A DNA stretch of 64,000 nt. It comes from a virus. A model generated the notes under the pieces. It saw nothing but the letters and a program-made list of their open reading frames with translations. It did no database searches and had not been told where the DNA came from. Positions 3,678 through 31,984 of this stretch are shown in pieces. The stretch covers positions 1-64,000 of IMG/VR virus record IMGVR_UViG_3300049491_000357, one strand, 5' to 3'. Positions within the stretch are counted from its first letter, which is position 1. Every line of letters begins with the position of its first letter. Made by a program: the position numbers and the translations under genes.

Positions 3678-4163
3678 TCACGAGTAGACTACTTTGAGTC
3701 CAGCCCATCGAATAACTGCGGCATCCGTGGGGCCAGGGGTTCCAGATGAAATTCGATATCTGACGTCGTATAGTATGGAACTGTTGGGGAGGGACGTGGG
3801 CACAACCAGGTTCGAGGTCACCAAAGACACAATTGAGTTCGTCGAAGTAGTCAGAGTGGCAGCAGAAACGACTGCCCCATCTGTTACGTTGAAAAGGGTA
3901 AACTCTGCTGTCATCCCAGAGGTCGCAAAGCCCAGGACCATGAAAGTGATGCCTCTGGTTGTGTTGCCTTGTGAAGTTGGGAAAGAAGCAGGATTGAACA
4001 GAATGCTGCCTGCCGAAACGTTGGAGGTTGAGTTTGTCGCTTGTGTCCCAGATACGGCAGGAAGGTCTTGAGAGGTCCCCAATGGCGACACATACAGAGT
4101 ATCTGTATCGGGTACAGCAGTCACCACGCCAGAAATTACAGCGACAGGTCGACGAGCTGTCAT
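3678..4163 (-). CDS. Small beta-rich virion-like protein
   Basis: A 161-residue protein with ATG at 4163 and AAAGGTG about 6 bases upstream, a good ribosome binding site. The sequence is almost entirely Ser/Thr/Val-rich beta strand, with LYVSPLGTS near residue 23 and a final WAGLKVVYS strand, consistent with a jelly-roll or Ig-like fold. A similar-length open frame on the same strand (3673-4182) is a different reading of the same DNA, has a composition unlike a folded protein, and is rejected. The gene ends 8 bases before the 391-residue gene, so they probably form a translational pair. Function is unknown; a fibre or decoration role is likely from context. Confidence 0.7.
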   Translation of the reverse strand: MTARRPVAVISGVVTAVPDTDTLYVSPLGTSQDLPAVSGTQATNSTSNVSAGSILFNPASFPTSQGNTTRGITFMVLGFATSGMTAEFTLFNVTDGAVVSAATLTTSTNSIVSLVTSNLVVPTSLPNSSILYDVRYRISSGTPGPTDAAVIRWAGLKVVYS

Positions 4164-6681: not shown

Positions 6682-9600
6682 TCAAGGCCGAAGCGGCGGG
6701 AGAATTCGCCGCGTGAGGGTGATGTTGGACGGGTCAATCGTGACCTTTCGGAAGTCGTTCACGATGGGTTTCCCCTCGATGTGATACAGATCTGCGGCGG
6801 AGTTACCTTCTGCCGTACCGTTTGTGCTGACCACCGTGTACCACCCCTGAGGGTCTACAGGGCTTGTCAGATAGTATGCCGTCGTTTGAATGAGCATCAT
6901 CAGCTCGTTTCCGGCCGAAACCTCAGCAAGCCCAAGGTTCGTCACGGTGTTTCGAACGAGGTAAGCCCGTCCAACAAGTACGGTGACTCGTGTGTCAGCC
7001 CCTCCAGGAGGAGCATGCAAGGCACGTGGATAGACAGCAGCCACCTCACCTCCAGGGTAAGGACCAGAAGCCGCGAAAAGAGAGCCTCCGCGGTTTACAC
7101 GGTAGTTGGTAAGGAGCGAGTAGTTACCCTGGTTGCCGTCAACGTGGGCCACAAAAGTCCCAGTCGCTCCCCCAATGTCGGAGTTCCCCAATGGAATTTG
7201 GGTCTCCTCGACATTCGACTGTCGTTGGATCGAAGTGAACAAAGCCTTGAAGGTATCGTTGTGGTACCTGAATCCGGTTGCTGCATCCGGCATGTACGAG
7301 TTTCCACGGAAGTCCTTGTCGCGGAAGAGAGCCCCCAACGGAAGGCGTTCTGTGCACCCGAGATAGGATTGACCTGGAGGGAAACCTTCATCACCCTGAA
7401 GAGCATCCAGTTTGATGGGGGGACGTGGGGATACGGGGTTTGCAGGAGGCCAAGGTGCTGCATCCTTGGCCTCAAACCCGACTTGGCCTGGATTTGGGTC
7501 AATGCTGTACGACGCAACGGGCAGTCGGCCAGTACCCAAAGTTGTGGTGAACCCTGTCTCAGCCAACACCTCAAGCACTTTTTGATTGGGTCGGGTGAGT
7601 GCGTCCTGATTGAGACCTTGACTCATAAGAGCCACAACCTCTCCCGATTGAAGTGGGCCAGGCGCATATCCAATGTCTTGATACACCGTCTGGCTCCCCC
7701 ATGCATCGCCTTGGTAAGGCGTTCTGGAGAAGTTGATCAAGACCTCATCGGAGTTGGTCACAGGTGACGGGACAATCAACTCAGGGGCATCGATAGATGC
7801 CGTGATGTTTGACGCTCGAACTGGCGAAACCGCTTCCGAACGCTGGCGGCTGAGCACCAACCGGAATTCCTTGCTGTTATTGAAAGCGTCACGATCAAAG
7901 CCGTAGATTGAAGCCTCGATGACGTAGTTCCCAGCCGCAAAGTTCGCGATGGGATTCACGGTGGACTTCGTAAGGTCCAGTGCCTCCGCATTCAGGATGA
8001 ACGTCGAGTCCCCATCGTCATCAAGCTCAATCCAGAAGAGGGGGACGTCGCAGTTTTGACGAAGTAGGTTCTTGGCAGCCGAGAGTGATCCCGTTGGGGC
8101 TCGGTCTCCAGCCCCGAAGGCAGAACCATTGATCTTGTAGTCATTGGCTTCGTAGACCGCCCAAAGACGAGCGGGCCCATAGAACGGAGGTAGCTCCAGT
8201 CCCTGTCGCCCCAACCCACGAGGGTCTGTGAACTTTCGGATGCCCGCGTACTGCTTGCCTCCAAATGTGAAGGTCCCGTTGTAAGGGGCAGGGTTGGTGC
8301 CGGGCGGAGTGAGGTCTAGGGTCGAGAAGCTGGCGTAGCTAAATGCCCCATAGCTGAACGGGATGTAGTTCTTTTCGGCATTCGCGAATGGACCAGCCCC
8401 CGAAGGTACGTTCAGGAGGTAGTTCATACCCTGGCTGAACGGTACCTGGTCCTGCCAAAGGAGAGGCAGGTCGTACTCTCCCCAACTCGGGACAAGCCCA
8501 CGTGGGAAAGTGATGTAGATGTTCTTTGTGGCTGGCGTGGGATCTGTCGTTCCCGAAAAGATACCCAGCGGGTCTGTCGTCGTGTACTTGGGGGTTACGC
8601 CATCTACTTTGAATAGAGGCATGAGCCCCTGTCCCTTAAAGACCGCGAAGTTGGCTCCCACAAAAGTCGGTACTGGGCGATCCAATCCCACTGTGTCGTT
8701 TGGGACGCCAGTGGTAAAGATACTCGTGATCACATACCGTCCAGGCTGAGGACCACCCGAGATAACGATCGAGTCTCCGACAGCTGCACCTGCTGTGACA
8801 AAGTTGACGCCAGCACCCTGGAACTGAGATGCCGAAGCATTTCCAGTTCCCGTAGCGAACGAGGTAGGACGCTGATTTGGAGAAGTCCCATCGAATGTGA
8901 TAACGCTGTCTGGAAGGTCAATTCTCCGAAGTGGTTGGAGAACAAGCGTCTTTGACCCCAGATCTGTGTACGCTTCTGAGGTGACAGGGATGCGAGGGGC
9001 ATCTCCGTTAGCGTACTTACCCCAAAATGGTACCCAGGTCGTTCGAAGACTGAAGCTGTTCGTTGCAACTTGTTGCTGGTTCAACAGCAAGTCGGCAGAA
9101 GGGAACAGCAAAGAGACCGAGTGAAAACTATCTGGGCGGCGTGAGAGCCCTCGTCCTGCACCATAGATGCAGTGGACGACAAGATAGAGCCGTTGTGCTG
9201 TCGTTGGGAAAGAGGGGCCAAACGTAACGACAAGGTCATCCGAAGAGGTCGGATTCGTTGGGGTGATCGTGTAGCAAGAAGGATCAAGCGGAGACGTCTC
9301 CCCGTCAACACGGAGCGAGAAGTTTACTGCTTGGCCGTCGAACATCCAACGTACCTGGTCCGCATCGCCTCCAGGAAGCCCAGCCTTCAACTGGTTCACG
9401 GGGATGGTGAGTACGTCTCCGGCCCCAAAAACGTTACCTACGGACACCTTGGTGGTGAGGTTCACCTGAAGCGCCAAGGACCACGACTCGTTAACCGGGA
9501 CAGGAGCGGCAGCAGCCGTTGGCTTGACAATCACCTCAATTCGTTGAGGGCAAGCGGCATCCGAAAAGATCGACCTGATGTTATCAGGGCCGTCAAGTTT

Positions 9601-11007
9601 GGTGATGCCTGTTGCAGCCGAACCGTTCGTGATCTTGTCTTGGTAGAAGACAAACTTCCCTTGAGTCCCACTACCCGAACGCTTCCAGTTTGTTCGAAGC
9701 TGACCCTGAAGTAGACGGTCCAGGTTCTCCGACAAGAGAGCGTTGTAATCGAACCCATTGCCGCTCACAACGTGCCGCAAATCAAGCACATCATTGAGAG
9801 CTACTTGGTCCGAGAACAGCCCATCAGGTCGGCCAGAAATCACCTTCACTGGAGTCCCAGCTTTGTGTGCTTCTGCACGAGACCCGTTCACACCACGAGC
9901 CAGGATGGTCATGACCCCACCCCCAGTGATGCTCTGGTACTGAAGCTGCTCATCTCCAATCTGGATGAGCACAGGAGTCAGCGGGGTCAGCGGCAACGGG
10001 ATGTTGGACGCAGAGGCCAACGTTGCCGACAGAGATGTTGCCGACAGGTCCACAGAAAGAGCAGGGTCTGTCGAGAACGTGGTAACTCCCGTACGATCCA
10101 CCGCAGTAGGGTTACGGTCGAATCCACCATTGAGGTTCTGGCTAGGGTCACCTGTCCAGACAATCGAGTTTCGACGGAAAACGGCAGCGATGGGGATCGC
10201 ATACACATACCCATCAACCGTCCCAAGACCGTTGGTCGTGCCGTCCCCTGCCCGCCAAAGTCCTGCATCCCCAAGCGCCTGACGCATGTTCTGAAACGTG
10301 AATGAGGTGGGGGTCGAGGCAGCACCCTGTGCCTTGACGGTAGCGGGGTCGAATCCGTCAGGGTTCGACGTGAGACCCACAAGCCCCTTCACAACTCGGA
10401 TGCGGTACTGAATTTGAACCCGCTGTGACGTCTCGAACCCTAGAGCAGGGTCCACCAAGTCATCAGGGAGGAACGAGTATCCTCCTTCAACGTTGCCGTA
10501 ACGGTAGACGGCAGAAGCAGAGGGCTTGTTGGTGCTCGAAGGGTTTGGCGGGATACGAGCTTGCCAAACCTCAAGAAACACGTAGTCGATACGAAAGTCA
10601 CCCGCATTGCTCGGAGGAGGGTCGAGAGCAATCTTGTTCCAGGTGTCAGCGTCGTCAGGACTTCCAGGAGGCGTACCCGTTCGGGTGCCCGTCACAGGAA
10701 TCAACCAACCATTCACTGCCGCCCAGAGAACCGGCTTTTGTTCCGCTGGACGCTGCTTACCAAACTTGAACCAGTTAGACCACCTGGCATTCGTGTCGTA
10801 AACAGCGCTGGAGTTCGTGTCGTTACCCAGCCACCCTGAAGGCATGCCACGCAGGGTGGCCTTCCGGGTGTAGTTGACCCCTAGTTCTTGGAGCAGATTG
10901 AATTCTGCGTCCATCGGGGGTTTACCCTGTTGAAGGATGACCTCAACGTACTCTGTCGCGTCGGGGTTCAGAACACGAGAGACACCTGGACCAAGGTTGT
11001 TCGCCAT
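6682..11007 (-). CDS. Large tail fibre or virion protein, paralogue of the 886-residue gene
   Basis: A 1441-residue protein. The N-terminus NLGPGVSRVLNPD...QQGKPPMDAEFNLLQE matches that of the 886-residue protein at 21136-23796, and further blocks align in order: MPSGWL, YVFLEVW, RVQIQYRIRV, GDAGLWRAGDG, LGTVDGYVYAIPIA, VFRRNS. The GKP-x-x-D-x-E-x-N pattern resembles the 'QGRV-LDADWNE' motif of DUF6519-type tail proteins from memory. Central beta sequence includes one dispersed module (AGAAVGDSIVISGG, about residues 750-800). A closing region with FRDKDFRGNSY matches the paralogue's DTDIEGRSY. The leader has only AGAAAGA-like purines. Probably a receptor-contacting or fibre-adaptor protein; no glycosidase motif seen. 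Confidence 0.78.
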   Translation of the reverse strand: MANNLGPGVSRVLNPDATEYVEVILQQGKPPMDAEFNLLQELGVNYTRKATLRGMPSGWLGNDTNSSAVYDTNARWSNWFKFGKQRPAEQKPVLWAAVNGWLIPVTGTRTGTPPGSPDDADTWNKIALDPPPSNAGDFRIDYVFLEVWQARIPPNPSSTNKPSASAVYRYGNVEGGYSFLPDDLVDPALGFETSQRVQIQYRIRVVKGLVGLTSNPDGFDPATVKAQGAASTPTSFTFQNMRQALGDAGLWRAGDGTTNGLGTVDGYVYAIPIAAVFRRNSIVWTGDPSQNLNGGFDRNPTAVDRTGVTTFSTDPALSVDLSATSLSATLASASNIPLPLTPLTPVLIQIGDEQLQYQSITGGGVMTILARGVNGSRAEAHKAGTPVKVISGRPDGLFSDQVALNDVLDLRHVVSGNGFDYNALLSENLDRLLQGQLRTNWKRSGSGTQGKFVFYQDKITNGSAATGITKLDGPDNIRSIFSDAACPQRIEVIVKPTAAAAPVPVNESWSLALQVNLTTKVSVGNVFGAGDVLTIPVNQLKAGLPGGDADQVRWMFDGQAVNFSLRVDGETSPLDPSCYTITPTNPTSSDDLVVTFGPSFPTTAQRLYLVVHCIYGAGRGLSRRPDSFHSVSLLFPSADLLLNQQQVATNSFSLRTTWVPFWGKYANGDAPRIPVTSEAYTDLGSKTLVLQPLRRIDLPDSVITFDGTSPNQRPTSFATGTGNASASQFQGAGVNFVTAGAAVGDSIVISGGPQPGRYVITSIFTTGVPNDTVGLDRPVPTFVGANFAVFKGQGLMPLFKVDGVTPKYTTTDPLGIFSGTTDPTPATKNIYITFPRGLVPSWGEYDLPLLWQDQVPFSQGMNYLLNVPSGAGPFANAEKNYIPFSYGAFSYASFSTLDLTPPGTNPAPYNGTFTFGGKQYAGIRKFTDPRGLGRQGLELPPFYGPARLWAVYEANDYKINGSAFGAGDRAPTGSLSAAKNLLRQNCDVPLFWIELDDDGDSTFILNAEALDLTKSTVNPIANFAAGNYVIEASIYGFDRDAFNNSKEFRLVLSRQRSEAVSPVRASNITASIDAPELIVPSPVTNSDEVLINFSRTPYQGDAWGSQTVYQDIGYAPGPLQSGEVVALMSQGLNQDALTRPNQKVLEVLAETGFTTTLGTGRLPVASYSIDPNPGQVGFEAKDAAPWPPANPVSPRPPIKLDALQGDEGFPPGQSYLGCTERLPLGALFRDKDFRGNSYMPDAATGFRYHNDTFKALFTSIQRQSNVEETQIPLGNSDIGGATGTFVAHVDGNQGNYSLLTNYRVNRGGSLFAASGPYPGGEVAAVYPRALHAPPGGADTRVTVLVGRAYLVRNTVTNLGLAEVSAGNELMMLIQTTAYYLTSPVDPQGWYTVVSTNGTAEGNSAADLYHIEGKPIVNDFRKVTIDPSNITLTRRILPPLRP

Positions 11008-11067: not shown

Positions 11068-11712
11068 TCACCCCAAATCTAAGTAAAGAAGAGCCCAAGA
11101 AGCTACACGCAGTGGACGAGTCGGCAACGTGGTGACGTTGGTGAGACGTATGATGAACTGATTCCCCTGTCCAATCAAGGGGATATTGAGCATCCCCCCA
11201 TCCGTGGTAGGGTAGAAGTGGCCCCCGTTATCAAAGCTCACGTCACACGTGAAGTTCGACGGGCTACTCGCCTCCTCGATATACGTAGCCCCTACCCTAG
11301 AAAGTGAACTGTCGTTGTAGGCTAGGGAGAAGGTTTCAAAGGTTACCACGGCTTGACCGGGAGAGGCCAAAAGAGGAACTACCGTCGACTGGAACGTTGC
11401 CCCAGGGAAAATGTTGACAATGTTTCGGTCCCCAAAAGACCCGCTCACATTTGGAGCCCCTAGGTCCACGTCGATGAGATCAAGAAGATCATCAAAAACG
11501 ATGTTTGGGTATCCGGCATTGTAGGCCAAGAGCGCTTGGTGCTTCTTGGTAAGCAAATTGGACAAGTCGGCTGGATTTTGCACCGACAAATAGTCGGGGA
11601 CCCGGACAACGATGTTCCCGTTGGTTGTGGCATCAGGCCCCGACCGCACATCGAGAATCTTTGCTGTGGGGATCGGGTTACCAAACAGGTCAACCATGTA
11701 CAAGGTGCTCAT
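11068..11712 (-). CDS. Fibre-associated virion protein, unknown family
   Basis: A 214-residue protein from ATG 11712 with an AGGATGA ribosome binding site; the upstream stop and this start share one base (TGATG). The N-terminal 70 residues (FGNPIPTAKILDVRSG.., then a helix with LLTKKHQALLAYNAGYP) are mixed; the remainder is beta, with FTCDVSFDNGGHFYP and a final VASWALLYLDLG strand. No signal peptide or membrane segment. The gene lies between two giant fibre genes, so it may be a fibre tip, collar or chaperone-like partner. No homologue recognised. Confidence 0.66.
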   Translation of the reverse strand: MSTLYMVDLFGNPIPTAKILDVRSGPDATTNGNIVVRVPDYLSVQNPADLSNLLTKKHQALLAYNAGYPNIVFDDLLDLIDVDLGAPNVSGSFGDRNIVNIFPGATFQSTVVPLLASPGQAVVTFETFSLAYNDSSLSRVGATYIEEASSPSNFTCDVSFDNGGHFYPTTDGGMLNIPLIGQGNQFIIRLTNVTTLPTRPLRVASWALLYLDLG

Positions 11713-12446
11713 CAGCTCATCCTATGTCGGAGGTTGTCTCTCACGTAACCAGCTCCTGGTTGAGCCTTCCTACCATAGGGATGATGCCCAGAGGAAGTCA
11801 CATTTGCATACGAAGGCAAACTTACCTTCCCGGCTGGCGTCATGAGACGGTGATTGTACTGCGGCAAACGTGTTTGGGCGCCTACATTCGAGTAGGTGAC
11901 GTTCGTTGGGTCACCCCACGTTTGACCCGCAGCTTGCCAGATTGGCCGCCCCATATTGGGCCACGATTCCTCGATGTCCGTAGCACCTCCACCGATGACA
12001 ACGTTCTCGATATGCACGTTGTCTGCGTCTTCGATGATGAGGCCCGTCGCAGTCTGACCCACCGTCCAACAGACCACGTCTTCTCGTGCAACCGCAAAGA
12101 CCGAGTCACCCACGACGAACGATGGGATATCTGTGTCTGTGGCGTCAACGATGAGGGTGTTGTAGGTCGGCCCTGGCCCGGACAGGCTCAAGATGGTGAC
12201 CACAGCTTTAGGTACACCACCAGCACTCACGATCATGATCTTCATCCCCGGCTGCCATGCTTGCGAGGCAACCGAAAGCTGAAGGGTACGACCAATCCAA
12301 GAAGCGATAGTCGACGGACCGCTCAGGAACACGCCTTGTGCTGGGTAGACCCCTGGAGAGGAGGAGTTGCTGTCGTACCAGAGGATAGAGGCAGCAACGA
12401 GCCAACGGCTCAGGCGAGGGTTCCACCGAACCTTCATCTGAGACAC
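11712..12446 (-). CDS. Fibre-like ORF in frame behind a TAA stop; start uncertain
   Basis: From the first standard start, GTG 12446, this is 244 residues; ATG 12437 is next. Neither has a visible ribosome binding site. The frame is open back to the TAA at 12576-12578 that ends the 2119-residue fibre, so it is an in-frame continuation of that gene. The early segment MKVRWNPRLSRWLVA resembles the W-N-x-x-x-x-LVV blade motif at the end of the upstream protein (VAWNGSHYLVV). A segment resembling the dispersed beta module follows (WQPGMKIMIVSAGG), then VHIENVVIGGG, which looks like a beta-helix coil. The C-terminus is basic and unstructured. Likely a C-terminal fibre domain made by readthrough, by a rare start, or as a relic of a split gene. 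Confidence 0.6.
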   Translation of the reverse strand: MSQMKVRWNPRLSRWLVAASILWYDSNSSSPGVYPAQGVFLSGPSTIASWIGRTLQLSVASQAWQPGMKIMIVSAGGVPKAVVTILSLSGPGPTYNTLIVDATDTDIPSFVVGDSVFAVAREDVVCWTVGQTATGLIIEDADNVHIENVVIGGGATDIEESWPNMGRPIWQAAGQTWGDPTNVTYSNVGAQTRLPQYNHRLMTPAGKVSLPSYANVTSSGHHPYGRKAQPGAGYVRDNLRHRMS

Positions 12447-12578
12447 GAAGGGGGCAACCGGTTGTGTACCCGTCCCATTGCTCTTGGCCCCATACCCTGT
12501 CGGGTATGACCCGTAACCTGGGCCAGGAATCTGTCCAACGGCATTTCCGAAAAGGAAATCTCCACTGGGAGGGTTTTA
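12447..12578 (-). other. Open, protein-like stretch following an in-frame TAA
   Basis: Between the TAA at 12576-12578 and the first GTG at 12446 lie 43 sense codons in the same frame. They encode a Gly/Pro/Tyr-rich stretch (GQIPGPGYGSYPTGYGAKS) that looks like real protein. The only near-start codon in it is an ATT; no ATG, GTG or TTG occurs in frame before 12446. This is the only TAA among the 40 readable stop codons. The base after the stop is A, not the C typical of strong bacterial readthrough sites. Confidence 0.6.
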
Positions 12579-15500
12579 CGTGTTTGGGTGCAAGACCGCT
12601 GAGCCTACCTCGCCAAAACGGCTGTTCAACAGCTTGGCTTGAAGTTGCGCCTTGGACGTACCCAACTGAAGCATGGGCATAACAACCAAGTAATGTGAGC
12701 CATTCCAGGCAACATCTCCACGCTGGAACGGTACCTCAACAGGAGGGTAGTTCAAAACCACTTCTGGGGTCGTGGCTCGGACACTTGGCTTGAACCCGTA
12801 AAGAGCTAGCTGAGAACCACCATTCGTAACTAGAACAGCGAACTCATCCTCTACCTCATTGTAGGTAACACCATGCAGGATACTGGTCTGTGGCGAAGAG
12901 CTGTTTGCCCACGTAGGGTTTTGAATGAGAGCCCCTCGCGTAGTAACCCCAGCTTTGGTGGATTCCAAAGACCCGGCATTGTCGTAATCCGACATACCAC
13001 CGCCACGGATTTCACCGTAGATGGCCTTACCCCCCAGCACATTGATGTCCCCAGAGTTAAAGAGACCCTGAACGATAAGCTGGTGCCGCCGTGGGTCGTA
13101 GTTGATGACGGGGTACACCCCATTCGAGTCGACGGAAGTCACCAGGGTGTTGGTGTCCATGACCCTGGTAACCACAAGCTGGTCACCAGGCTGAACGTTT
13201 GCCTGCTGGTAGCGGAGCACGACGTAATTGACACCAGCAGTTCCTGTTCCGAACGTGCTGCTGGACGCTGCGATATTGATGTCTGTCGCAGTCACAACAT
13301 CAATCATGTAGATGCCCTGATCAGCACCGCTGGTGACTACCAGGTAGTCTCCTGGGCGAACACCGCGAGTCAAGAAAGTTGCAGCACCATCCGTGAACAG
13401 GGATGAACCTACGTTTGTGACGCCAGTTGCTCCTGATGCCACGAACGGGCTGACTTGATTCCCGAAAAGCTGGATGACCGTGTAGGCAGCACTATAGAAA
13501 GGCGCAGCCCCTGTCGCCAAAGTCCCCGACTGACAGGCATACCCGAGTGAGTGCACCCCACCCCCAGAGCCCAACGTTGTGGTTGAGAAGGGCCCATTCG
13601 ACCCAGGGTAGGACGTCGGATACCCAGCTCCAGTTTGAAGCCCCTCACTCGACATCTGACGAGTAGGTTGCGGCCTTGCCCCACCGTCCTCAGGCATTGT
13701 CGTGAAAAAGACAGTACTGGACAAGGTAGGTGGGCTAGCGGTATCCGTCGGAACCACTACTTCGTAGAAAACCGTGAACCGGCTGCCATCCCAAAGGACC
13801 TTTGGGTTCTGGAAAGCCCCAGGTTCCGTCGACTGGTCAATCACGTAGGTGGTTCCACCTCCACCAAAACCAGGGAATGGGCCACTTCCAGGGAACTGCC
13901 CTGCCGATGCAGCAGCATCCATGTTGAAGAGAGTCACCCCGATGGTGGACCCTCGCATGCTTGGGGCCGTCGAGTCATACTGAGGAACCATACCGGCCGC
14001 CCAGACAACTGCATAGACTTTGCCCGAAAATGCAGCCTCACAGACAGAGACGGTGTTGTTTTCGTTTGGGGTCGGGGCTTGGCCGCCCTCTCCAGAGAAC
14101 CCGGTACCATCTGAGATGTGGACGGCCGAGAGCGGGAACTGAGCCATCAGCCCCCCAAAGGATGATGCAGCCTCGTACGGGTCAACCAACTCACCCGTCT
14201 GCATGTGAGTATCCTCACTGCCCGGCAAGTAGCTCATACACAGATAGTAACCTACAGCTGCATCCGACGACCCCACCAAGAGCGTGGTAGCATTGGCCTT
14301 CTCCACCCAGAAGATCACGAACCTTTGGCCGTCCCAGATGACCTTTGGCCCTACCCCTGGTGCCAAATAACGAGGAGGGTTATTGGCAATATTCTCGTAA
14401 GAGGGGTCAGTTGGCCACGACGATAGATCGCCACGAGCGAGCGTAGGCCCATCTACATAGACAGGGTTGTTACCCTTTGCATCTGTGTACACAGCCCCGA
14501 TGATGCTCGTTTCAGGGACCAACGTAGGGGCGTACGGAGCATAGATACGAGACGTTGGGAAAACGAAGACGTTTCTGAATCCGTCTGTATCGAAGGACAG
14601 AGTGGATGCAGTAGGGGCCAAGTGCCTTGTGTAGACATGTGCCTTACTGAGCATCTCAACACTGCTTGAAGGGGTAGCCTCAACAGCTAGGTTTCTCAAC
14701 GTGACGTTGTACGGACCAAACGTCTGCCGGAAAAACTCTACGGAGTTGGATGGAGACGACTCGTCCCCTGCCATGCGGTCAACAAGTCCGTAGAAGCTTT
14801 CGCCCCAAGCAATAGCTACCGTAGAGCTTTCGCCCAACGCCCTTCGTCCAATCCCTTTCGGACGACCTGGGGCAACGCCCCGGAAGCCGACGTTTGCCTT
14901 GTATCGGCTTGTAGGCTGAAGACGATCAGCACTTTGCCCAGCAAGTGTACCCGATACTTGAGAGGGGTAATTGCCGCCCTGTGCTTGAGGACGCCGCATC
15001 AGTTCGACTTCACGAGGCACACTCGAAAGGTCGCTCGGTTGATCCGCCCACGTGATGAAGTCCGTGGAGGTGATGACCTGGCCATCAGAGCTGATACGGA
15101 AGCCCTGATTCTTGGCTCCTGCCGCCAAGGGGTACTCAGGAAGCAGAAGGTACCACTCTTTGCCCGTGATTGCGGCGGCACCAAGAGGTTGCCCCGTCAG
15201 GTTTACCGTGTGTTCGTCAGCCACAGACACAATCGGCAACGTGAGTGCTACCGGAACTCCAGGTTGCACAGGAACGTAGATGGCGGCCCCTGTTGGGATC
15301 GTCTGTCGGAGAGTCCAACCGAAGTTTGCAGTCCCCGCTGCATCCGAACCAAAGTAAAAGAGAGGGTCGGTGAACCACGAATTAAGCCCGTTGACCTGGT
15401 AGTTACCCGTGAAGCTGTGGATGCTGTTCTTGGAAGGGCTAACAGCAACCCAATCTTGTCCCGTCCAGGTCACGTCAGGGATACAAGACTCCACTCCCGC

Positions 15501-18500
15501 CATGGTCCAACGGTAGGAGAAGTTCAAGAAACTGACCTCACGAGCGTGATTGTACGGGATACGTACGCCACGCTGATGGTTAGGTCGTTCCGTAATGGGA
15601 GTCCTGGTCCCAAGGCTCTTCAGCGAGACTTCAAGGTCACGAGAGATACGCCCAGGGAACTGAGGGTCTACCTGGCTGGTAAGAACCCCAGTCCATTCGT
15701 TACCAGCACCTGCGGGGAGATAGTTCTTTTGAGTTGGATAAACCTGCTGCCCATCGTCCCGAAGAACAACAGAACAGGTAGAGACATGTTCGCGGTACAC
15801 AGCGGAAATGTCGTTCGAAGGGATATCCCCACCTGGGAAAGCGCTTCCAGACCACGTGGGACCGCTTGCTGTGACTCCATTGTCGAAGTTCTTGACTCGT
15901 GGGTACGACGGAACGCAGTGGGTATTGAACCCTTGGAAAACCACACACCAGTTGGAGGCACCTCGTGAGATACGAACATAGTCCGGCTCACGCATCTCCA
16001 TTTGGTATAGGCTGACTTGATTTGCAGCTACCACCCCAACATCCAACCCTGCCTCAGTGATGACTCCAGCAGACTGACGTACACGACGACCCCGGATGAC
16101 GCTCGAAGGCGAAACCGCCCACGTCACTCCAGCTTCAGCAAGGAAGTCTGATGCTCCCTCCCATTTGATGAAGAGGTTTGCACCTGCGATGCTGGTTACG
16201 ACCCCAGAAAGGCCCTGCTGGACCGTGGGGAACGTTGGGCTCACCAGGACATGAACCTTCGACCCCACCTTAACCCCAGAGGTTGCCCAAGCTGGATAAC
16301 CAGGGTCCGTCAGGAAGCTGGTTGCTCCGACGGTGATGGTGCCCCCAGCGTCCAGGTAAAGAGGGTGATTCTGGATCGACCAAACAGCCATGAATCCGCC
16401 CAGCTCATCAGCTTCAACCGAGGTCGAAGAGACGATGGCAGTAGACGGGATACCTGCTGTTGAAGAAGTGGAGGTGAATACCGCCCCCGCTTTGATGTAC
16501 CTACGATCCACCTGAGAGGCTGTAGGAGTGTTGCCCGTGTAGTTGTATGTCCAGTACACGAGGCAAGCAATGTAGTCCCCAGTCGCCGAGTAGTTCTCAG
16601 ACGCAATACTAGGGTGATCCGAGAAGTTGTTCGTCGTGACAGGATAAAGGGTGGCGTCCGTATAGATAATCTCCCACCCTTCTTGAGACGTGTCGGTGTT
16701 CAGCTGAAACTGCCGAAAAGCAACCCGACCACCAGAATTGGGTCCTACGGTGTGCTCCTCTACCCAACAGATGGTGTACTCGTTTGCGTGCTCACTGTAC
16801 GCCAATCTAGGATAGTGCCCCCCAGAATGCCACTGCCCTCCAGTAGAAAGGCGTCCAAACAGCGGATTTGCATTGTCCTTGATGTTGACCCCAATCCCAG
16901 GGAAAACCTTAGACCCATCCTCTCGAATCTCGTTGAAGAGGATCTCGCCCGTCGTCAACGACCCGTAAACGGTTGCCCATACTCGACGTACTGGGTTCCA
17001 AACCGTATCTGTGCCTTCGACTTTTTCGAAAGCCGCCAACGTGGTCACGGTGGGAGAGATGTTGGTCCCCATCCAAGCCAAAGGATCAGGCCAAGAAGAG
17101 GCGTCATACACACCCCAAGTTGTGTTGGGGCCGACCTTAATCGGACCTGACACAGACGCAACCATAGAGCCGACAGTCGAGTCGAAGTTCCTGTAGATGA
17201 GCCGAGTCCCAGCGCCTTCACCTTCGATGGTCGTGCCAGGCGGGACCATGATGGCGTTCTGGATGTAGTAACGACCCTTCTTGAGATGAACGGTCCCAAA
17301 AGGGGTGGTCGTGAGTTGAGCATGTAGGGTGGTCGTGAGCCCTGCATCCAAGTGTGACCGAATGCCCCTCGCATCACCCCCGAACGTGCTCAGAGGGTTC
17401 ATGTTTGCAGCCGCGTTTGCAGGACCGCCTGCATCCGAAACTGTAAAGGCAGTCTTATCTGCCACAAACATCTCTGTGTCGGGGTACCCAAATGTAGCAA
17501 AGAACTCAGAGGTCTTTGCTAGGAACCGCCATTGCTGAGAGTCTTGACGATACGAGAAGTACCGCAAACCCCTTGTGGAGAGAGAACTCGTAACCTCCGT
17601 GGTCCCAAATTCCGCAGAAGCTCTCCGCCATGGGGGCAGGAACGGATAAGAAGTTGGGCTAGAAACCTGAACGTCCGGAGCACCAAGAGCCTTCACATAG
17701 GCATCATCACCTAGTGCGGTTGCTCCAATTTGGAACCCCTTATACACAGAGTTGTTGGCGATAACACCCGAGTTGTTAAACTGGATCTTCCCTGCCGCGA
17801 ACGATTGGAAGTCGTCACTACGAGGAAAGTACACTCCCCGAGAGCTGCCTTTGGTCAAAGACAAGTCGATAGACCAGAAAACAGCATAGAGCTGGATGCG
17901 CCCCGTCGTTACGTTGACACCTCCAGCAACTTTGATGTTGCCCCCAAGTTGAGGAGCACAAGAGAATCTTACCGTTCCAGCACGGTAATCGATGGTCATC
18001 CGCTGATCTGTAGCGGGGATAGCCGGGTCAATTACCGGATTGAGGGTTGTGATGGGCTTGGTGTAATCGGGCCCAGTGCCTGCACCATTCGAGGGGTAGA
18101 GAACAACGCGATACCCCAAAGTATCAAGACTAGAACGCAAGACAGAACGAAGAGTCCCGTTATCAAAAACGAAATCCGCCCTATCGTTGGCAGACTCTTG
18201 TGGTCGTACAATGTTTTGAACACGTTGAGCATTGATGGCGGCAAGTGACGGGTTGAGCTGGTTGTGGATGGCACCTGGCCCCACCATCAGAAACGTCTGT
18301 TCGTGTCCCTTGGGGCCAGACCCCGGGACAGCAAAAAGCTGCATCGCCTGAGGACGCACGATGACGTAGGAGAAAAGATCTCCTGCTCCAAAATCGAAGG
18401 CGTTCGTCACCGTACCTGGATTCCAGATATCCGATACTGTGAGGGTGTTCGGAGCCACCACCGTAATGGTGCCTACTACGTTAGCATTCAGCTCTCCAAC

Positions 18501-18935
18501 ACCACTGGAAGGCTTGATGCAGAGAATATCTCCGGGCTGAACCCCAAGAACAACAAAATTGGTGACCAGGGTATTGTCTTGCCAAGTCCCAGCTGCTGTA
18601 GCAAAGCCAGACAGATGAGAGTCGAAAACCCCCAGAGGGCCCCACCATTTCACGGTCTCTGAGATCAACGCCCCAAGAGCGGTCTTTGTTGTAAGGCCAG
18701 ACCCAGGAAGTTGAGGCGGGGTGATCGGATAAACGTCATCGAGATTGACCGTCGGCCCAGAGTAGAAAGGCTCCGTCTGAACGTTGCCCGGCCCCACCAC
18801 GCCCTCAGGGGGCAAAGCAGAATCCCCTACAGTGAGAGCCTTACCACCCGCCTCGAAATCCGCTCGGCGAAGCTGCTCTAGCTCCAGACGAGTGAGGTTC
18901 GAGTATGTACCCGTTGACGTGTAGGCTCCAGCCAT
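12576..18935 (-). CDS. Giant tail spike or fibre with beta-helix and propeller-like repeats
   Basis: A 2119-residue protein. ATG 18935 is preferred because CAGGAAC lies upstream and the gap to the previous stop is 53 bases; the frame is open 23 codons further. Near residues 520-590 a segment FGTVHLKKGRYYIQ..I.VPPGTTIEGEGAG has the form of a pectate-lyase-like beta-helix entry, common in tail spikes. Repeats of the type V-x-W-D/N-G-x-x-F/Y-x-V/I (VIWDGQRFVIFW, VLWDGSRFTVFY, VAWNGSHYLVVM, VTWTGQDWVAVS) resemble beta-propeller blades found in secreted bacterial proteins. At least one dispersed module is present (GVRPGDYLVVTSG). Probably host-receptor binding, perhaps with glycan-degrading activity; no catalytic residues identified. 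Confidence 0.8.
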   Translation of the reverse strand: MAGAYTSTGTYSNLTRLELEQLRRADFEAGGKALTVGDSALPPEGVVGPGNVQTEPFYSGPTVNLDDVYPITPPQLPGSGLTTKTALGALISETVKWWGPLGVFDSHLSGFATAAGTWQDNTLVTNFVVLGVQPGDILCIKPSSGVGELNANVVGTITVVAPNTLTVSDIWNPGTVTNAFDFGAGDLFSYVIVRPQAMQLFAVPGSGPKGHEQTFLMVGPGAIHNQLNPSLAAINAQRVQNIVRPQESANDRADFVFDNGTLRSVLRSSLDTLGYRVVLYPSNGAGTGPDYTKPITTLNPVIDPAIPATDQRMTIDYRAGTVRFSCAPQLGGNIKVAGGVNVTTGRIQLYAVFWSIDLSLTKGSSRGVYFPRSDDFQSFAAGKIQFNNSGVIANNSVYKGFQIGATALGDDAYVKALGAPDVQVSSPTSYPFLPPWRRASAEFGTTEVTSSLSTRGLRYFSYRQDSQQWRFLAKTSEFFATFGYPDTEMFVADKTAFTVSDAGGPANAAANMNPLSTFGGDARGIRSHLDAGLTTTLHAQLTTTPFGTVHLKKGRYYIQNAIMVPPGTTIEGEGAGTRLIYRNFDSTVGSMVASVSGPIKVGPNTTWGVYDASSWPDPLAWMGTNISPTVTTLAAFEKVEGTDTVWNPVRRVWATVYGSLTTGEILFNEIREDGSKVFPGIGVNIKDNANPLFGRLSTGGQWHSGGHYPRLAYSEHANEYTICWVEEHTVGPNSGGRVAFRQFQLNTDTSQEGWEIIYTDATLYPVTTNNFSDHPSIASENYSATGDYIACLVYWTYNYTGNTPTASQVDRRYIKAGAVFTSTSSTAGIPSTAIVSSTSVEADELGGFMAVWSIQNHPLYLDAGGTITVGATSFLTDPGYPAWATSGVKVGSKVHVLVSPTFPTVQQGLSGVVTSIAGANLFIKWEGASDFLAEAGVTWAVSPSSVIRGRRVRQSAGVITEAGLDVGVVAANQVSLYQMEMREPDYVRISRGASNWCVVFQGFNTHCVPSYPRVKNFDNGVTASGPTWSGSAFPGGDIPSNDISAVYREHVSTCSVVLRDDGQQVYPTQKNYLPAGAGNEWTGVLTSQVDPQFPGRISRDLEVSLKSLGTRTPITERPNHQRGVRIPYNHAREVSFLNFSYRWTMAGVESCIPDVTWTGQDWVAVSPSKNSIHSFTGNYQVNGLNSWFTDPLFYFGSDAAGTANFGWTLRQTIPTGAAIYVPVQPGVPVALTLPIVSVADEHTVNLTGQPLGAAAITGKEWYLLLPEYPLAAGAKNQGFRISSDGQVITSTDFITWADQPSDLSSVPREVELMRRPQAQGGNYPSQVSGTLAGQSADRLQPTSRYKANVGFRGVAPGRPKGIGRRALGESSTVAIAWGESFYGLVDRMAGDESSPSNSVEFFRQTFGPYNVTLRNLAVEATPSSSVEMLSKAHVYTRHLAPTASTLSFDTDGFRNVFVFPTSRIYAPYAPTLVPETSIIGAVYTDAKGNNPVYVDGPTLARGDLSSWPTDPSYENIANNPPRYLAPGVGPKVIWDGQRFVIFWVEKANATTLLVGSSDAAVGYYLCMSYLPGSEDTHMQTGELVDPYEAASSFGGLMAQFPLSAVHISDGTGFSGEGGQAPTPNENNTVSVCEAAFSGKVYAVVWAAGMVPQYDSTAPSMRGSTIGVTLFNMDAAASAGQFPGSGPFPGFGGGGTTYVIDQSTEPGAFQNPKVLWDGSRFTVFYEVVVPTDTASPPTLSSTVFFTTMPEDGGARPQPTRQMSSEGLQTGAGYPTSYPGSNGPFSTTTLGSGGGVHSLGYACQSGTLATGAAPFYSAAYTVIQLFGNQVSPFVASGATGVTNVGSSLFTDGAATFLTRGVRPGDYLVVTSGADQGIYMIDVVTATDINIAASSSTFGTGTAGVNYVVLRYQQANVQPGDQLVVTRVMDTNTLVTSVDSNGVYPVINYDPRRHQLIVQGLFNSGDINVLGGKAIYGEIRGGGMSDYDNAGSLESTKAGVTTRGALIQNPTWANSSSPQTSILHGVTYNEVEDEFAVLVTNGGSQLALYGFKPSVRATTPEVVLNYPPVEVPFQRGDVAWNGSHYLVVMPMLQLGTSKAQLQAKLLNSRFGEVGSAVLHPNT

Positions 18936-18988: not shown

Positions 18989-21202
18989 TCAGGCAGGAAG
19001 CCACTCGACTTCATCGATGAAGGCGTTCAAGGGGACCGCCCCAGCGTTGATGAAGCCTACCGCAAGGAATATAGGGTATTCACCAGCACCATTGTCTGCG
19101 GTGTAAGCACCCATGTCGTACGTCACGAAAACGTCAGGCCCAACCGTTGTGATACTGGTCTGACACCCATACCCATCAACGTTGTTTGCAAGCACTGGAT
19201 TTCCAAGAGGACGGCCAAGATCGAGCCTGCTTGTTATCCCAGGGATGGCGATTTGAAGTACAACCCCATTGGGGTGATCCGTAACGGTGTTACCCGCAAA
19301 CGGGACGATACTCTCAAAGAATGTTGCAGCCAGCCCTCGAATACGGAATTTGCCTGTACTACGAGCTGCCCCTGTATCGAACGCCCTAAAGTAAACTCGA
19401 ATCCAGTTGACCCCATCCCCGGCCAAAACTGCTGCATAGTCGGGCTGACCAACAGGTTTGGCGATCGTGTAATCAGTTTGCGGGTAAACGAGGCGATCCC
19501 CCGCAACCTGAAGATGATCGGCAGTAGGGCCAGGGAAAGAAGTCAAAACAGCAGTCGAGTCATACTTATTGATGGGAGTGGGCTCAACCGTAAGAGTGGG
19601 GTTAAGCGCCACCAGCTTGTAGCGAAACCGCTCGTCACGGAAAGGCTCATATGTACTGGTTGAGGATCCTGCTACACCAGGGGCTGTCTGAGGCCACGAG
19701 TTGAAGATCCATCGATCTCCTTGAGCATCAGAGTCCGAAGACCAAGGCCGATTTGAGTTGACCCTGATACGAGAACGCCCAAAATCACCGGGGAACGTGT
19801 ATGGGGTTGGGGAGGTGATCGCCAAAACAGGAGTCAGGTCTTGTACCTGATGCCCAGGAAGGGGGGCCGCAGCTGCTGTGTAGAGGGCTCCCCCTGTTGG
19901 TCGGAGCTGGTAGTAAGCCCTACCTGCCTTGCCTCCACCAAAGTCGACAAAGTCGAATTCAATGGGGTCTTCAGTCGTTACAAAGTCCGCTGGGAGATTG
20001 GGTCCTGAAATCTTTCCAGGCAACCACCCATTACCCACCAAGCCGTTAACCCGAAGGTCACTGTTCCACTGAAGGTCTACAGCCCCATTGCTGTAGTGAG
20101 CGACGCCTGAGATCAGCACCGTTGAGGGTACGCCAACCGGAGTGGCTGTCCAAGACGCGACAGCAGGAACCGTCGCCGACAAGATATCTTGAAAGATATA
20201 ACGACGATTGAGGGCGCTAAGTCCAGGGTCGTCTGTTGGAACAGCATCGTACGAAGTCGTTGTCGGGTCTGCCGAATACACATTTGCTGCCGTAAAGTTA
20301 ACGGCCAAAGCAGCAGATGCGATGGACGCATCAGACACCACATACGTTTCCCGCCAGTGCACAATCAGATAGGACCCATTGGAACCGGCTGAGATACCAG
20401 GTAGGGTAATAACGTACCGTGCGATTTGGTAAGCAAAGAAGTCTGACGAGAAGTCGACGTAGCTGTAGGCCGTGAGATCCCGTTGGTACCCAGTTCGATC
20501 CGACAAGCTAATCTGGTCCAAACCAACGTTAGCCGAGGTGTATGCAGGTTGGGCTGTTGTTCGTAGCAGATCACTGAAATCCGCTGAAGGGCAGGTCAGG
20601 GCTCCCGGACGATTTACCGTAGACCCCAACCAAAGGGCGGCGTAGAGACTTGTCGTACCAGCGTTGGCGAAATCCCCATCGGTGGAGAAGTAAACAGCCA
20701 AAACGCCACGATCAGCTGGATACAGAAATGCCTCGAATCCCGTAGGAGGAGTTGCTCCAACGGGCCAGATGAAGTGTGAGAAAACAGCGGCTGCTCCAGA
20801 TGTCCAAGCTCCACCTTGCACGGAAGGAGTCGTCAACGTGTCCCAGTATGGGACTCCCGAGTTCGGGATGACAAATGGAGTCGTCTGATTGAACCCTGCC
20901 CGATTAGGCCGAATCGGGAACAAATCCTTAGCCTGAACGATGAAGTCCAGAACAGACTCTCCGTCTACTGTCCCCCCAACAGAGGACAACACAAGCTGCC
21001 CTGTTGTGGCGTCCGTCGGGTTAACCCCAATCGCTGACGCCATGTGGGCATCAACAGGGTCGTTGATGTGCGCCAAAAGGGCTGCATTGCTTCCACCCCC
21101 ACCACCGCCAGGGATGATGAAAGCTGATGCGTTTACTACCCCGGCAGGAAGCTTACCAGGACCAGGATTGACAGAAGTGAGAGGGTCTTTGGAGGACGGC
21201 AT
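18989..21202 (-). CDS. Tail fibre-like virion protein, unknown family
   Basis: A 737-residue protein from ATG 21202, which overlaps the 3' end of the 886-residue gene by 67 bases; an AAGG run lies about 12 bases upstream. The N-terminus contains a Gly6 run (IIPGGGGGGSNAALLAH) followed by INDPVDAHMASAIG, a segment of the kind that begins trimeric fibre shafts. The rest is long beta sequence with Tyr/Asp-rich turns, including DSDAQGDRWIFNSWPQ and a final VTYDMGAYTADNG..FLAVGF region. I see no coiled coil, protease or glycosidase motif. Its place between two fibre genes argues for a fibre subunit. Confidence 0.7.
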   Translation of the reverse strand: MPSSKDPLTSVNPGPGKLPAGVVNASAFIIPGGGGGGSNAALLAHINDPVDAHMASAIGVNPTDATTGQLVLSSVGGTVDGESVLDFIVQAKDLFPIRPNRAGFNQTTPFVIPNSGVPYWDTLTTPSVQGGAWTSGAAAVFSHFIWPVGATPPTGFEAFLYPADRGVLAVYFSTDGDFANAGTTSLYAALWLGSTVNRPGALTCPSADFSDLLRTTAQPAYTSANVGLDQISLSDRTGYQRDLTAYSYVDFSSDFFAYQIARYVITLPGISAGSNGSYLIVHWRETYVVSDASIASAALAVNFTAANVYSADPTTTSYDAVPTDDPGLSALNRRYIFQDILSATVPAVASWTATPVGVPSTVLISGVAHYSNGAVDLQWNSDLRVNGLVGNGWLPGKISGPNLPADFVTTEDPIEFDFVDFGGGKAGRAYYQLRPTGGALYTAAAAPLPGHQVQDLTPVLAITSPTPYTFPGDFGRSRIRVNSNRPWSSDSDAQGDRWIFNSWPQTAPGVAGSSTSTYEPFRDERFRYKLVALNPTLTVEPTPINKYDSTAVLTSFPGPTADHLQVAGDRLVYPQTDYTIAKPVGQPDYAAVLAGDGVNWIRVYFRAFDTGAARSTGKFRIRGLAATFFESIVPFAGNTVTDHPNGVVLQIAIPGITSRLDLGRPLGNPVLANNVDGYGCQTSITTVGPDVFVTYDMGAYTADNGAGEYPIFLAVGFINAGAVPLNAFIDEVEWLPA

Positions 21203-23796
21203 TTTAACACGCCCTTGTTGAGAAGGCGCCCTTTGATATTGAAGACTGCCGCAGTGGTCGTATTGATGAGCAAGGGCTCAAAGGAGACCCCATTATTGGG
21301 GTCAAAGAATGCTTCACGAAGCAGCAACACAAGAACAAGTTGGCCTGCATGCCCAAAAGTCGAACTTGGGATCAGTTCCGCAATCATCGGAACGATATTT
21401 CGGTGTCTCTTGGCGTCGGAGAGCTGCTGAGCAAAAGCATTGGGGATATACCCCACAGGGACCGACTTGAAGTACGAACGTCCTTCAATGTCAGTGTCCC
21501 CGAGTCCTCGATCAAAGGTCACTTCCTCTGGGGCAGGAGTGTACCCTACGAAGGCCGGAAGACGCAAGAGGCCGTTGGTAGAACTGAAGTCCGTCACAGC
21601 CAAGTCGGCCGAAGCTGAGAGTTCATGGTCTCCGTTGAACGTACCTACCGACGAAGGGTAGATCCCACCCATCTGCACGTAGTTCACAGGGAACGGGTAG
21701 GCTTCGTTTTCAGAACCTGACCCTACCGCAAGGCAATAGACCGCATCCCCAACAAATCGAGGGATGACCGTCAAGGTCGTTCCTAGAGAACTAGACCGAA
21801 TGGTTTGAGGGGCTCGTGCCTCGTAGTAGATCGTCATCTGCTCATTGTTTTGAGGCAAAGGACGGATCGCCGTATACGTGACCTGTAGGGTATCCCCAGG
21901 CACCGTAAAGTCGAGAGGATTGGTAAAGGTGACGTATCTCCCCGAGGGGTCGAGAAGCGTGCCTCCGATGATGGGCACAGCATTTTTGAGCACGGCGACA
22001 ATCGTGTCGACTCGCTCAGGCAACATGAAAAAGTCGTAAGGCCCTGGAGCCTCCGAGTTCGACTCAAAAACAGCCGTTGTGATGTTGGTCGTCACATACT
22101 GAAGCTGAACTTCTCTGTGCGGAGCGTCGATGGTATTGCTTGGGGCCAGGGCAGAAAAGCTGACTGGTGCCGCCGCAGGTAGTTGGCCCGGGTTGTTGAC
22201 AAAGAAGGAGCCCGCAAACGTGTCTGTGGGGGTTCGGGTAAGACCTTCGCCTCGCGGATAAGCCACCACCAAAGTCAAGTACAGGGGTTCGGTCGAGAGA
22301 CCAAACCCTACAATGTTGCCAACGGTTACGGTCAGAGGAGCAAGGGGCACCGTCCCAAAGCCCGTCACGCTGGTCAGCAGCATCTGACGGGTTACCTGAC
22401 CCGGTGTACCAACCCACCACCCATCAACCAGGTCAACGAACTGTACTCCAGCAGAGTTGTAGGCAGCCCAGTTAAAGGGGGCAAAGGGGGAGATCTCCAG
22501 CGCTGTAGGCTGCACAGTCACCACTGACCCGGGTAGCCAACCACCACCTGGGGCATTGATTTTGACTACGACCGTCTCATACACACACCGGTCTGAGAAG
22601 AACCGCCGGGTTGCATCAAACTGCCCGATCAACGTCCCACCAGGGGTATCCCCCGTGATGATCCCGTCTCCGCCGTTTGCGTTCGAGATACCAATCTCAT
22701 CCGCTGCAAAGACCGAGTGCCCGTCGTAGCCCCCGCCTTGTAGGGCGTTCGTCCACTCAGTACGGATCTTGTTGTCGAAAAGGAAGTTGAGATTCTTGGT
22801 TAGAATCTCGCTAAAATCCCACCCGTTCGGGGTCACACCCGTTCGGAGGTCAGCGATATCCCGAGGCACAAAGATGTCGTAGAACAAGCTATCTGGTCGA
22901 TCACTCGGACCAGGGGAAGCTACGCCGCCGTTTTGATTGGTGTTGCGATCAAAGGCATTGGAGTTACGTCGAAACACGACCGCCAAAGGGATCGCGTACA
23001 TGTACCCATCTACCGTACCAAGAGCGTTCGTAGGGATACCATCCCCTGCCCGCCAAAGACCTGCGTCCCCGGCTGCATCCTGGCTAACATAGGGGAAGAT
23101 GGTTGCAACTCCATCCGGGGTTGCAGCGTTCGGAGGAACCGAGTTAGCCACCACCGTAGGGTCATTGATGACCAGAGGGAACGCGAAAGGATCGACTCCC
23201 TGGATGACTCGAAGTCGATATTGAATCTGTACTCGTTTGGTAGACTCCGATCCCAACGTCGCATCTTTGATGTCATCAGGGAAATTCAGGAGGGCATCAT
23301 CTGCGGGGGAGATCTTAACGTTACCGTCTCGCCAAATACGACCTGACGGGCTCTTACCGTCAAGAGAAGGAGCTGCCGTAAGCAGCCGTCGCCAAACCTC
23401 CAACACGACGAAGTCAGCTCGCTTAGCCCCGGGGCCAACAGGGGCAAGCCCCATATCGATCGTGTTCGTCCCGTCGTTTTTGCCTGTGTTTTGGACAGGG
23501 ATGATCCACCCATTCACATGGGACAGAAGCGTAGGTGAGGCGTAAAAATTCGCAGTGGGGGACGGAAGGAAGATGGCCTCCGACATGTCACTGGAGGCCA
23601 AAAAGTCCGCCGACAGCCACCCAGAGGGCATGGCCACACGAAGAGCTAGTTGTCCTGCACCCCCATCAACATCCTGCTGAAGGTTTAGCTCTGTGTCGAG
23701 AACTGGCTTTCCGGCCTGAAATACAGTCGTCTCCCACGCACGACCATCCGGGTTCAGGTAGCCGCTTACACCAGGTCCGAAGTTTTTGGATCCCAT
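21136..23796 (-). CDS. Tail fibre or virion protein, shorter paralogue of the 1441-residue gene
   Basis: An 886-residue protein, ATG 23796, with AGGGTG upstream. The opening NFGPGVSGYLNPDG...QAGKPVLDTELNLQQD and later blocks (MPSGWL, FVVLEVW, RVQIQYRLRV, GDAGLWRAGDG, LGTVDGYMYAIPLA, VFRRNS) align with the 1441-residue protein. It lacks roughly 550 residues that the longer copy carries in the middle and end. It ends in TAG, one of only two in the window, inside the start of the next gene. A structured leader precedes it. An adaptor or fibre role is likely, with the shared N-terminus serving as a virion attachment domain. Confidence 0.77.
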   Translation of the reverse strand: MGSKNFGPGVSGYLNPDGRAWETTVFQAGKPVLDTELNLQQDVDGGAGQLALRVAMPSGWLSADFLASSDMSEAIFLPSPTANFYASPTLLSHVNGWIIPVQNTGKNDGTNTIDMGLAPVGPGAKRADFVVLEVWRRLLTAAPSLDGKSPSGRIWRDGNVKISPADDALLNFPDDIKDATLGSESTKRVQIQYRLRVIQGVDPFAFPLVINDPTVVANSVPPNAATPDGVATIFPYVSQDAAGDAGLWRAGDGIPTNALGTVDGYMYAIPLAVVFRRNSNAFDRNTNQNGGVASPGPSDRPDSLFYDIFVPRDIADLRTGVTPNGWDFSEILTKNLNFLFDNKIRTEWTNALQGGGYDGHSVFAADEIGISNANGGDGIITGDTPGGTLIGQFDATRRFFSDRCVYETVVVKINAPGGGWLPGSVVTVQPTALEISPFAPFNWAAYNSAGVQFVDLVDGWWVGTPGQVTRQMLLTSVTGFGTVPLAPLTVTVGNIVGFGLSTEPLYLTLVVAYPRGEGLTRTPTDTFAGSFFVNNPGQLPAAAPVSFSALAPSNTIDAPHREVQLQYVTTNITTAVFESNSEAPGPYDFFMLPERVDTIVAVLKNAVPIIGGTLLDPSGRYVTFTNPLDFTVPGDTLQVTYTAIRPLPQNNEQMTIYYEARAPQTIRSSSLGTTLTVIPRFVGDAVYCLAVGSGSENEAYPFPVNYVQMGGIYPSSVGTFNGDHELSASADLAVTDFSSTNGLLRLPAFVGYTPAPEEVTFDRGLGDTDIEGRSYFKSVPVGYIPNAFAQQLSDAKRHRNIVPMIAELIPSSTFGHAGQLVLVLLLREAFFDPNNGVSFEPLLINTTTAAVFNIKGRLLNKGVLKCRPPKTLSLLSILVLVSFLPG

Positions 23797-23810
23797 GTTT
23801 TACACCCTGG

Positions 23811-23857
23811 CTTCTGTAACAGAAGACCTTCGATGATGGTCGATGCATACGGTCTTC
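23811..23857 (-). promoter_or_regulatory. Overlapping, mutually exclusive hairpins in the leader of the 886-residue gene
   Basis: On the transcript, GAAGACC pairs perfectly with GGTCTTC (arms 23851-23857 and 23822-23828, 22-base loop). CTTCTG pairs with CAGAAG (arms 23820-23825 and 23811-23816, 3-base loop). The two stems share the bases at 23822-23825, so they cannot form together. No U-run follows, so a simple terminator is unlikely. The arrangement could modulate translation or mRNA processing ahead of ATG 23796. Only the base pairing is observed; function is inference. Confidence 0.45.
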
Positions 23858-24515
23858 ATACGACGCCGACTAAGAAGGAAAGCCGCCAGACGATCGTGAG
23901 CGTCGAAGTTGCAGGCTTGTTGATGACAGGAAACGTCAAGTAGTTGACCAACGTCTCTTTGGTGGTGAGGTCTACGGTAGGGTTGTACGGACCGTTTGGA
24001 GGAGAAACGGGGTTCTTGATCGACAGGTTCGTAGAGACGTTACCCCCGATGATCCCCATCTCAACCAAAGGTCCAACCGCCTCGGCTTCCGTGAACGTTG
24101 TTTGGAAGTCGACGACATTGGTCGGGATGGCTACCGGAAGCCCACCCCCGTCGATGAACTGAGTATTCGAGAAGGTTTTTCGAGTGATCTCAGCGTACAG
24201 GGCTCGTTGGGTGTTCGTTGGAGCCGGAGGAGCCATGGGGTTCCACCCGGTATCTCCTGTACCCACAGCCAAGCAAAAACACCCGTGAGGGGGTTCCTGC
24301 GAGTCCTTCATCAGACGTGCGATCAGGATCGAAGCATCCTTGACGACAAGATTCCGCTTCTCCCACTCATGTTGAAGCTCACCTGTAGCCCCGTCATGCA
24401 TCTTGATGAAAACGTCTCCCCGAATGTAGAATCGGGCGTTTTCATCGTACTTTGGAGATAGGACTACCCCCAAGTTACCTTCAGTGGTTGGAGAAAAAGC
24501 CTCGACATTTTTCAT
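23856..24515 (-). CDS. Virion protein related in layout to the 186-residue gene
   Basis: A 219-residue protein from ATG 24515, with GAGGG about 9 bases upstream. The frame is open to 24803, but that would overlap the neighbouring gene by about 240 bases. It has the order KRNLVV.DASILIARLM, CFCLAVGTG, PT.TQRALYAEITRK, a beta region, GIIGGN, and a final STLTIVWRLSF strand. The 186-residue protein at 31372 follows the same plan (DNLVTNAGL, NYIGLSND, a T-x-L-x-x-E element, late TLSVTYTSTI). This plan is familiar from small phage fibre-associated proteins that accompany large fibres. Probably fibre-associated. Confidence 0.7.
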   Translation of the reverse strand: MKNVEAFSPTTEGNLGVVLSPKYDENARFYIRGDVFIKMHDGATGELQHEWEKRNLVVKDASILIARLMKDSQEPPHGCFCLAVGTGDTGWNPMAPPAPTNTQRALYAEITRKTFSNTQFIDGGGLPVAIPTNVVDFQTTFTEAEAVGPLVEMGIIGGNVSTNLSIKNPVSPPNGPYNPTVDLTTKETLVNYLTFPVINKPATSTLTIVWRLSFLVGVV

Positions 24516-24564
24516 CTGTATTTCCCTCTGTGCATCTGAAGGGTCCGATAAGAGGAACCGCGGT

Positions 24565-31932: not shown

Positions 31933-31937
31933 AGCTG

Positions 31938-31957
31938 CCTCCTCCTTAGGAGGTGAT
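31938..31957 (-). promoter_or_regulatory. Hairpin that hides the AGGAGG ribosome binding site
   Basis: On the transcript the order is AUCACCUCCU, AAGG, AGGAGG. CCUCCU (31953-31948) pairs with AGGAGG (31943-31938) around a 4-base loop, burying the Shine-Dalgarno 5 bases before ATG 31932. The 10 bases AUCACCUCCU equal the anti-Shine-Dalgarno end of 16S rRNA. This could repress translation until the upstream gene is translated through the region, or it could be chance within a purine-rich leader. Confidence 0.55.
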
Positions 31958-31984
31958 GAAAGGGTTAGGGGTAGACGGCAAAGG

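Follow-up and report, generated by a model that had tools for sequence, protein, structure and literature searches.

An in-frame ochre codon within a giant tail-fibre gene of a soil-type jumbo phage is probably a derived nonsense codon

Does a stop codon in the middle of a conserved virion protein mark the boundary between two genes, a site of recoding, or a broken gene? The question is raised by a soil-type giant phage represented by the 86,838-base virus record IMGVR_UViG_3300049491_000357, a genome fragment (86.8 kb) of which bases 1-64000 form the 64,000-nucleotide stretch analysed here (the window). On the minus strand a tail-fibre frame opens with an ATG at 18935, preceded by a weak-to-moderate ribosome-binding site (-4.3 kcal/mol), and reaches a TAA at 12578-12576, after which the same frame stays open for 287 codons to a TGA at 11714-11712. 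These coordinates agree with those of an earlier interpretation made from the letters alone (the sequence-only reading), which also correctly placed the first ATG, GTG or TTG 43 codons past the TAA (GTG 12446, without a clear ribosome-binding site) and gave the right length, 2407 residues, for a product read through from ATG 18935. The fibre and its neighbours are laid out as follows.

12579..18935, minus strand: pre-stop part of the giant tail-fibre frame, 2119 codons from the ATG at 18935; a conserved N-terminal attachment region is followed by propeller-like blades
12576..12578, minus strand: in-frame TAA; absent in 9/9 homologues and the sole internal stop in 45 comparable genes
12447..12575, minus strand: coding stretch of 43 codons in the fibre frame; lacks a standard start and carries the conserved motif FGNAVGQIPGPGYG
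11712..12575, minus strand: post-stop continuation of 287 codons plus TGA 11714-11712; last blade and conserved C-terminal domain
11068..11712, minus strand: 214-aa protein downstream of the fibre; conserved neighbour, fused to the fibre in locus L160
6682..11007, minus strand: conserved tail protein (1441 aa) belonging to the same module
18989-21202, minus strand: 737-aa conserved protein upstream of the fibre
21136-23796, minus strand: 886-aa conserved protein upstream of the fibre

The TAA had been described as the only one in the window, which is accurate once wrong frames are removed: the other listed TAA (3673) belongs to a wrong frame, the real gene there (3678-4163) ending in TGA, and the TAA-terminated frame of 79 codons at 23800 is apparently spurious. 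It does not extend to the record as a whole, in which six conserved genes located at 74 to 84 kb of the same 86.8 kb end in TAA, and a genome-wide reassignment of this codon was rejected on that ground.

The open run after the TAA is coding and not a product of chance. A codon-frequency score trained on the window's other genes remains above zero in the fibre frame across the stop, whereas both other frames score negative; a wrong frame or a hidden double frameshift was rejected since the scores hold one frame throughout. The 43-codon stretch between the TAA and the GTG scores +10.2 in frame, inside the middle half of the real coding range (for segments of this length, true coding sequence has a median of 12.0 and a 5-95% range of 5.4 to 18.6, and 95% of off-frame segments score below -0.9). 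Within this stretch lies a conserved Gly/Pro motif, FGNAVGQIPGPGYG, and an alignment of ten sequences shows G10, P17 and G18, numbered from the stop, to be invariant (10/10) and G14 to be shared by 8/10. Over the 43 residues this alignment has 79 matches; when the window residues were shuffled 5000 times the mean was 25 and the highest count 62, a lenient control because the alignment was optimised on the same residues. Both the score and the motif thus bear out the proposal that the skipped codons are protein-like.

Relatives were collected by a tail sheath search, which returned 60 loci in viral contigs, many of jumbo-phage size, one record among them having a frame of 2514 codons that matches the fibre on either side of the stop. 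Three profile scans then yielded nine distinct fibre homologues (L130, L128, L131, L135, L156, L157, L159, L160 and L164, the near-identical L129 being counted with L128). In all nine a single uninterrupted frame covers the TAA position and the C-terminal domain, and none has two genes in place of the fibre. Their homology extends along the pre-stop part of the fibre as well. Full-length homologues comprise 2279-2620 residues (2572 in L160, which includes the fused 214-aa neighbour); that of L135 is cut by the contig end, and its homologous segment starts at post-stop residue 9, within the supposed gap. Identity to the post-stop continuation is 26-32%, with a best E of 4e-38 (L135). Comparison of the junction in relatives, which the sequence-only reading had proposed, therefore favours its view of the downstream frame as fibre continuation: given nine single-frame homologues and 43 coding, conserved codons, the second open reading frame is the missing C-terminus and not a second gene. 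The record's fibre has two hallmarks of this giant family, the N-terminal attachment region and the slot between the 737-aa and 214-aa genes, and lacks a third, an uninterrupted frame through the C-terminal domain, which is present in the 9/9 others. The family is absent from the libraries searched: the junction, the fibre and the C-terminus had no match in the phage record collection, neither part of the fibre matched Pfam or PHROGs, a PDB sequence search and an Rfam search of the window were negative, and no match was found in the genome contigs searched. At the DNA level the junction had no match in viral contigs, among which no contig of the same species was found.

The likeness noted earlier between blade motifs on either side of the stop is real, with VIWDGQRFVIF, VLWDGSRFTVFY and VAWNGSHYLVV before it and VRWNPRLSRWLVAA after it. 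In a structure model of the last 1027 fibre residues, blade-like strand groups flank the stop and strand is nearly absent in its surroundings (residues 731-781); the mean pLDDT is 42.5 (44.1 in a second model), and neither model is strong enough to build on. The stop may therefore sit in a strand-free loop between the last two blades, as this low-confidence model would have it.

The gene order 886-737-fibre-214-1441 is conserved in related phages. The fibre slot itself is variable, many relatives being without this fibre or having a shorter one (1001, 1221 or 1239 residues) with the same N-terminus. In L160:6995-14713 the fibre and the 214-aa protein occupy one 2572-codon frame, suggesting that the two work together. 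Several other features of the record were observed in passing. The N-terminal ~300 residues of the 1441-aa (6682-11007) and 886-aa (21136-23796) proteins look paralogous, their homologues cross-matching at about 36-40% identity, and two adjoining genes at window positions 23856-25743 form one 618-codon frame in relative G035. Directly upstream of a 1875-aa gene, the frames 31372-32136 and 31985-32800 overlap and have shifted counterparts in relatives; we infer a resemblance to a tail-assembly-chaperone frameshift pair. The gene at 82142-83050 is whole in this record, and its homologue is broken in L144:7771-10028 (G039) and in L154 (~G035 129102-131667). The broken versions begin with an N-part of ~30 residues, which terminates at a stop of its own after ...LLRDN|C and is followed by an endonuclease-like frame and a second open reading frame whose C-part ends ...LLVSN|S. 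These breaks look like split inteins, with two such putative splits in the one gene in G035, and no Rfam intron was found in L144.

How unusual is the interrupted fibre within its own genome? When the record was compared with its own proteins and those of G039, 45 comparable genes yielded a single in-frame stop, the fibre TAA; in a mapping on G039 genes the fibre alone fell into two pieces, and about 50 of the record's other conserved genes mapped whole. Since none of the nine relatives has this stop, the RNA folds ordinarily, the candidate internal starts are weak and the in-frame stop is single, we regard the TAA as a derived break in an ancestrally single-gene fibre, either a recent allele or a consensus error, with a joint probability of roughly 0.75. 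This figure includes the sequence-error case, also weighed as a rival below, so that the estimates overlap; a real nonsense allele in the sampled population has by itself about an even chance. The homologues are intact and the stop is confined to one lineage, as a nonsense allele would entail, and the stop is probably recent. The ancestral gene would have encoded one tail fibre of ~2400 residues in a jumbo phage with a contractile tail, and the TAA would have arisen in the loop between the last two blades in the lineage of this record. Normal reading would then truncate the fibre to 2119 residues with loss of the last blade and the conserved C-terminal domain (287 residues), leaving the downstream 287 codons as an orphaned C-terminus. 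With the 287-codon frame intact and the record otherwise clean, a damaging break in a conserved virion gene calls for recency or compensation. A single substitution in this region creates a stop in only ~3.3% of cases, and up to roughly 88 neutral substitutions could accordingly pass unseen.

Among the explanations raised by the sequence-only reading, a nonsense mutation and a sequence error fit better than readthrough, while a rare ATT start is improbable as part of the split-gene reading below. Under a consensus or assembly base error the phage would lack the stop and make the 2407-residue fibre. The record is a metagenome assembly, a single base would be enough, and the stop is missing in all nine relatives; yet about 50 other conserved genes map whole and contain no other internal stop. 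One break among so many clean genes leans towards a true allele, and we consider an error possible, at clearly poorer odds than an allele. The least probable reading is a new split gene with restart at GTG 12446, ATG 12437 or the rare ATT 12530, in which a separately made C-terminal piece reassembles with the rest. The low-confidence model places the break in a loop between blades, and the GTG and the ATG lie where the last blade begins, a position that might tolerate a split. Against this, ribosome-binding sites are weak or absent at all three codons (-2.4, +0.6 and -3.5 kcal/mol), the two-gene arrangement occurs in no relative, and the gap codons keep a conserved protein motif, making a separate downstream gene with its own start unlikely.

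Readthrough or suppression, in which an amino acid is inserted at UAA in some or all fibres, perhaps via a phage tRNA with a UUA anticodon, would produce full-length and short fibres, and the intact, protein-like downstream frame is compatible with it. The stop is however unique to the record (0/9 homologues share it), which means that no recoding site is conserved; the least leaky stop is reported to be UAA (PMC5289835), here followed by A in RNA that is not unusually structured (folding z-score -1.18); and TAA ends six other genes of the record. Recoding would be expected to leave the same internal stop in many genes, and one was found in the 45 compared. The suggestion that a minority of virions carry an extended tip through readthrough thus has no positive support, and the uniqueness of the stop, the low leakiness of UAA, the ordinary RNA structure and the normal use of TAA elsewhere speak against it. 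Suppression is kept in play by the tRNA genes of relatives, where ARAGORN identified UUA (which reads UAA) and UCA tRNAs in G039, a UCA tRNA in both G029 and G033, and two CUA tRNAs in G042, at the following positions.

L174:12622-12713 and L244:2116-2187: stop-anticodon tRNA genes of G039
L229:2161-2233: stop-anticodon tRNA gene of G029
L241:1247-1319: stop-anticodon tRNA gene of G033
L236:11885-11962 and 13106-13182: stop-anticodon tRNA genes of G042

The UUA tRNA gene of G039 scores 53 bits against the Rfam tRNA family and, as we read it, has one A-C mismatch in the anticodon stem. No tRNA genes were found in the 86.8-kb record, a fragment without the region in which its relatives have tRNA arrays, and the existence of a UAA-reading tRNA in a relative together with this missing region leaves readthrough or suppression improbable rather than negligible. 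G029 and G042 have stop-anticodon tRNAs, for UGA and UAG respectively, yet no internal stop occurs in their tested conserved genes (own and G039 proteins against each record), and these genomes use all three stops normally. The in-frame stops of G039 and G035 fall close to the ends of the aligned open reading frames, with one exception, a TAG in G035 within its homologue of the overlapping 31372-32136 frame. The shorter fibre of G042 ends in TAG, and amber readthrough was considered there too; it was rejected, since the frame beyond that TAG closes after 23 codons and provides no extension. A large survey of jumbo phages covers recoding of TAG and TGA without mention of ochre (PMC13037316). 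The specific scenario in which a UAA-reading tRNA like that of G039, encoded outside the record, would allow full-length fibre to be made late in infection, giving short and long receptor-binding fibres, is more improbable still.

If the derived nonsense codon is a true allele, it would represent an early stage in the natural truncation of a receptor-binding fibre, showing which C-terminal part is dispensable; if it is suppressed, UAA recoding would here be confined to one virion gene, which would be rare. Gene callers will in any event annotate a false second gene at the post-stop frame of the fibre.

Closest to the interrupted fibre are those of related uncultured jumbo phages (among them IMGVR_UViG_3300036715_003906, 3300048599_000213 and 3300035182_002586), which share its N-terminus, blades, C-terminal domain and gene neighbourhood and, unlike it, have no internal stop. 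Tunturiibacter phage Tunturi_5, a 309-kb isolate (PMC11924767), and uncultured phage LR745208 are contractile-tail jumbo phages with a related tail sheath and module protein, although sheath identity is only 33-40% and neither matches the record's fibre. By fold, the best PDB matches are the phage endosialidase tailspikes 3gvk and 4hiz (Foldseek probability 1.00), which would suit a receptor-binding head built as a beta-propeller; TM-scores are only 0.15-0.25 on a model of mean pLDDT 42.5, and for that reason we claim no endosialidase membership, the matches being too weak for a functional claim. The nearest parallel for stops within such a gene comes from stop-recoding phages such as the crAss-like phages with genetic code 15 (PMC9523058), in which a virion fibre gene likewise contains in-frame stops and the clade includes suppressor tRNAs; in those phages peptides prove that TAG encodes glutamine, and does so in many genes, whereas here a single TAA interrupts a single gene and TAA is otherwise used normally.
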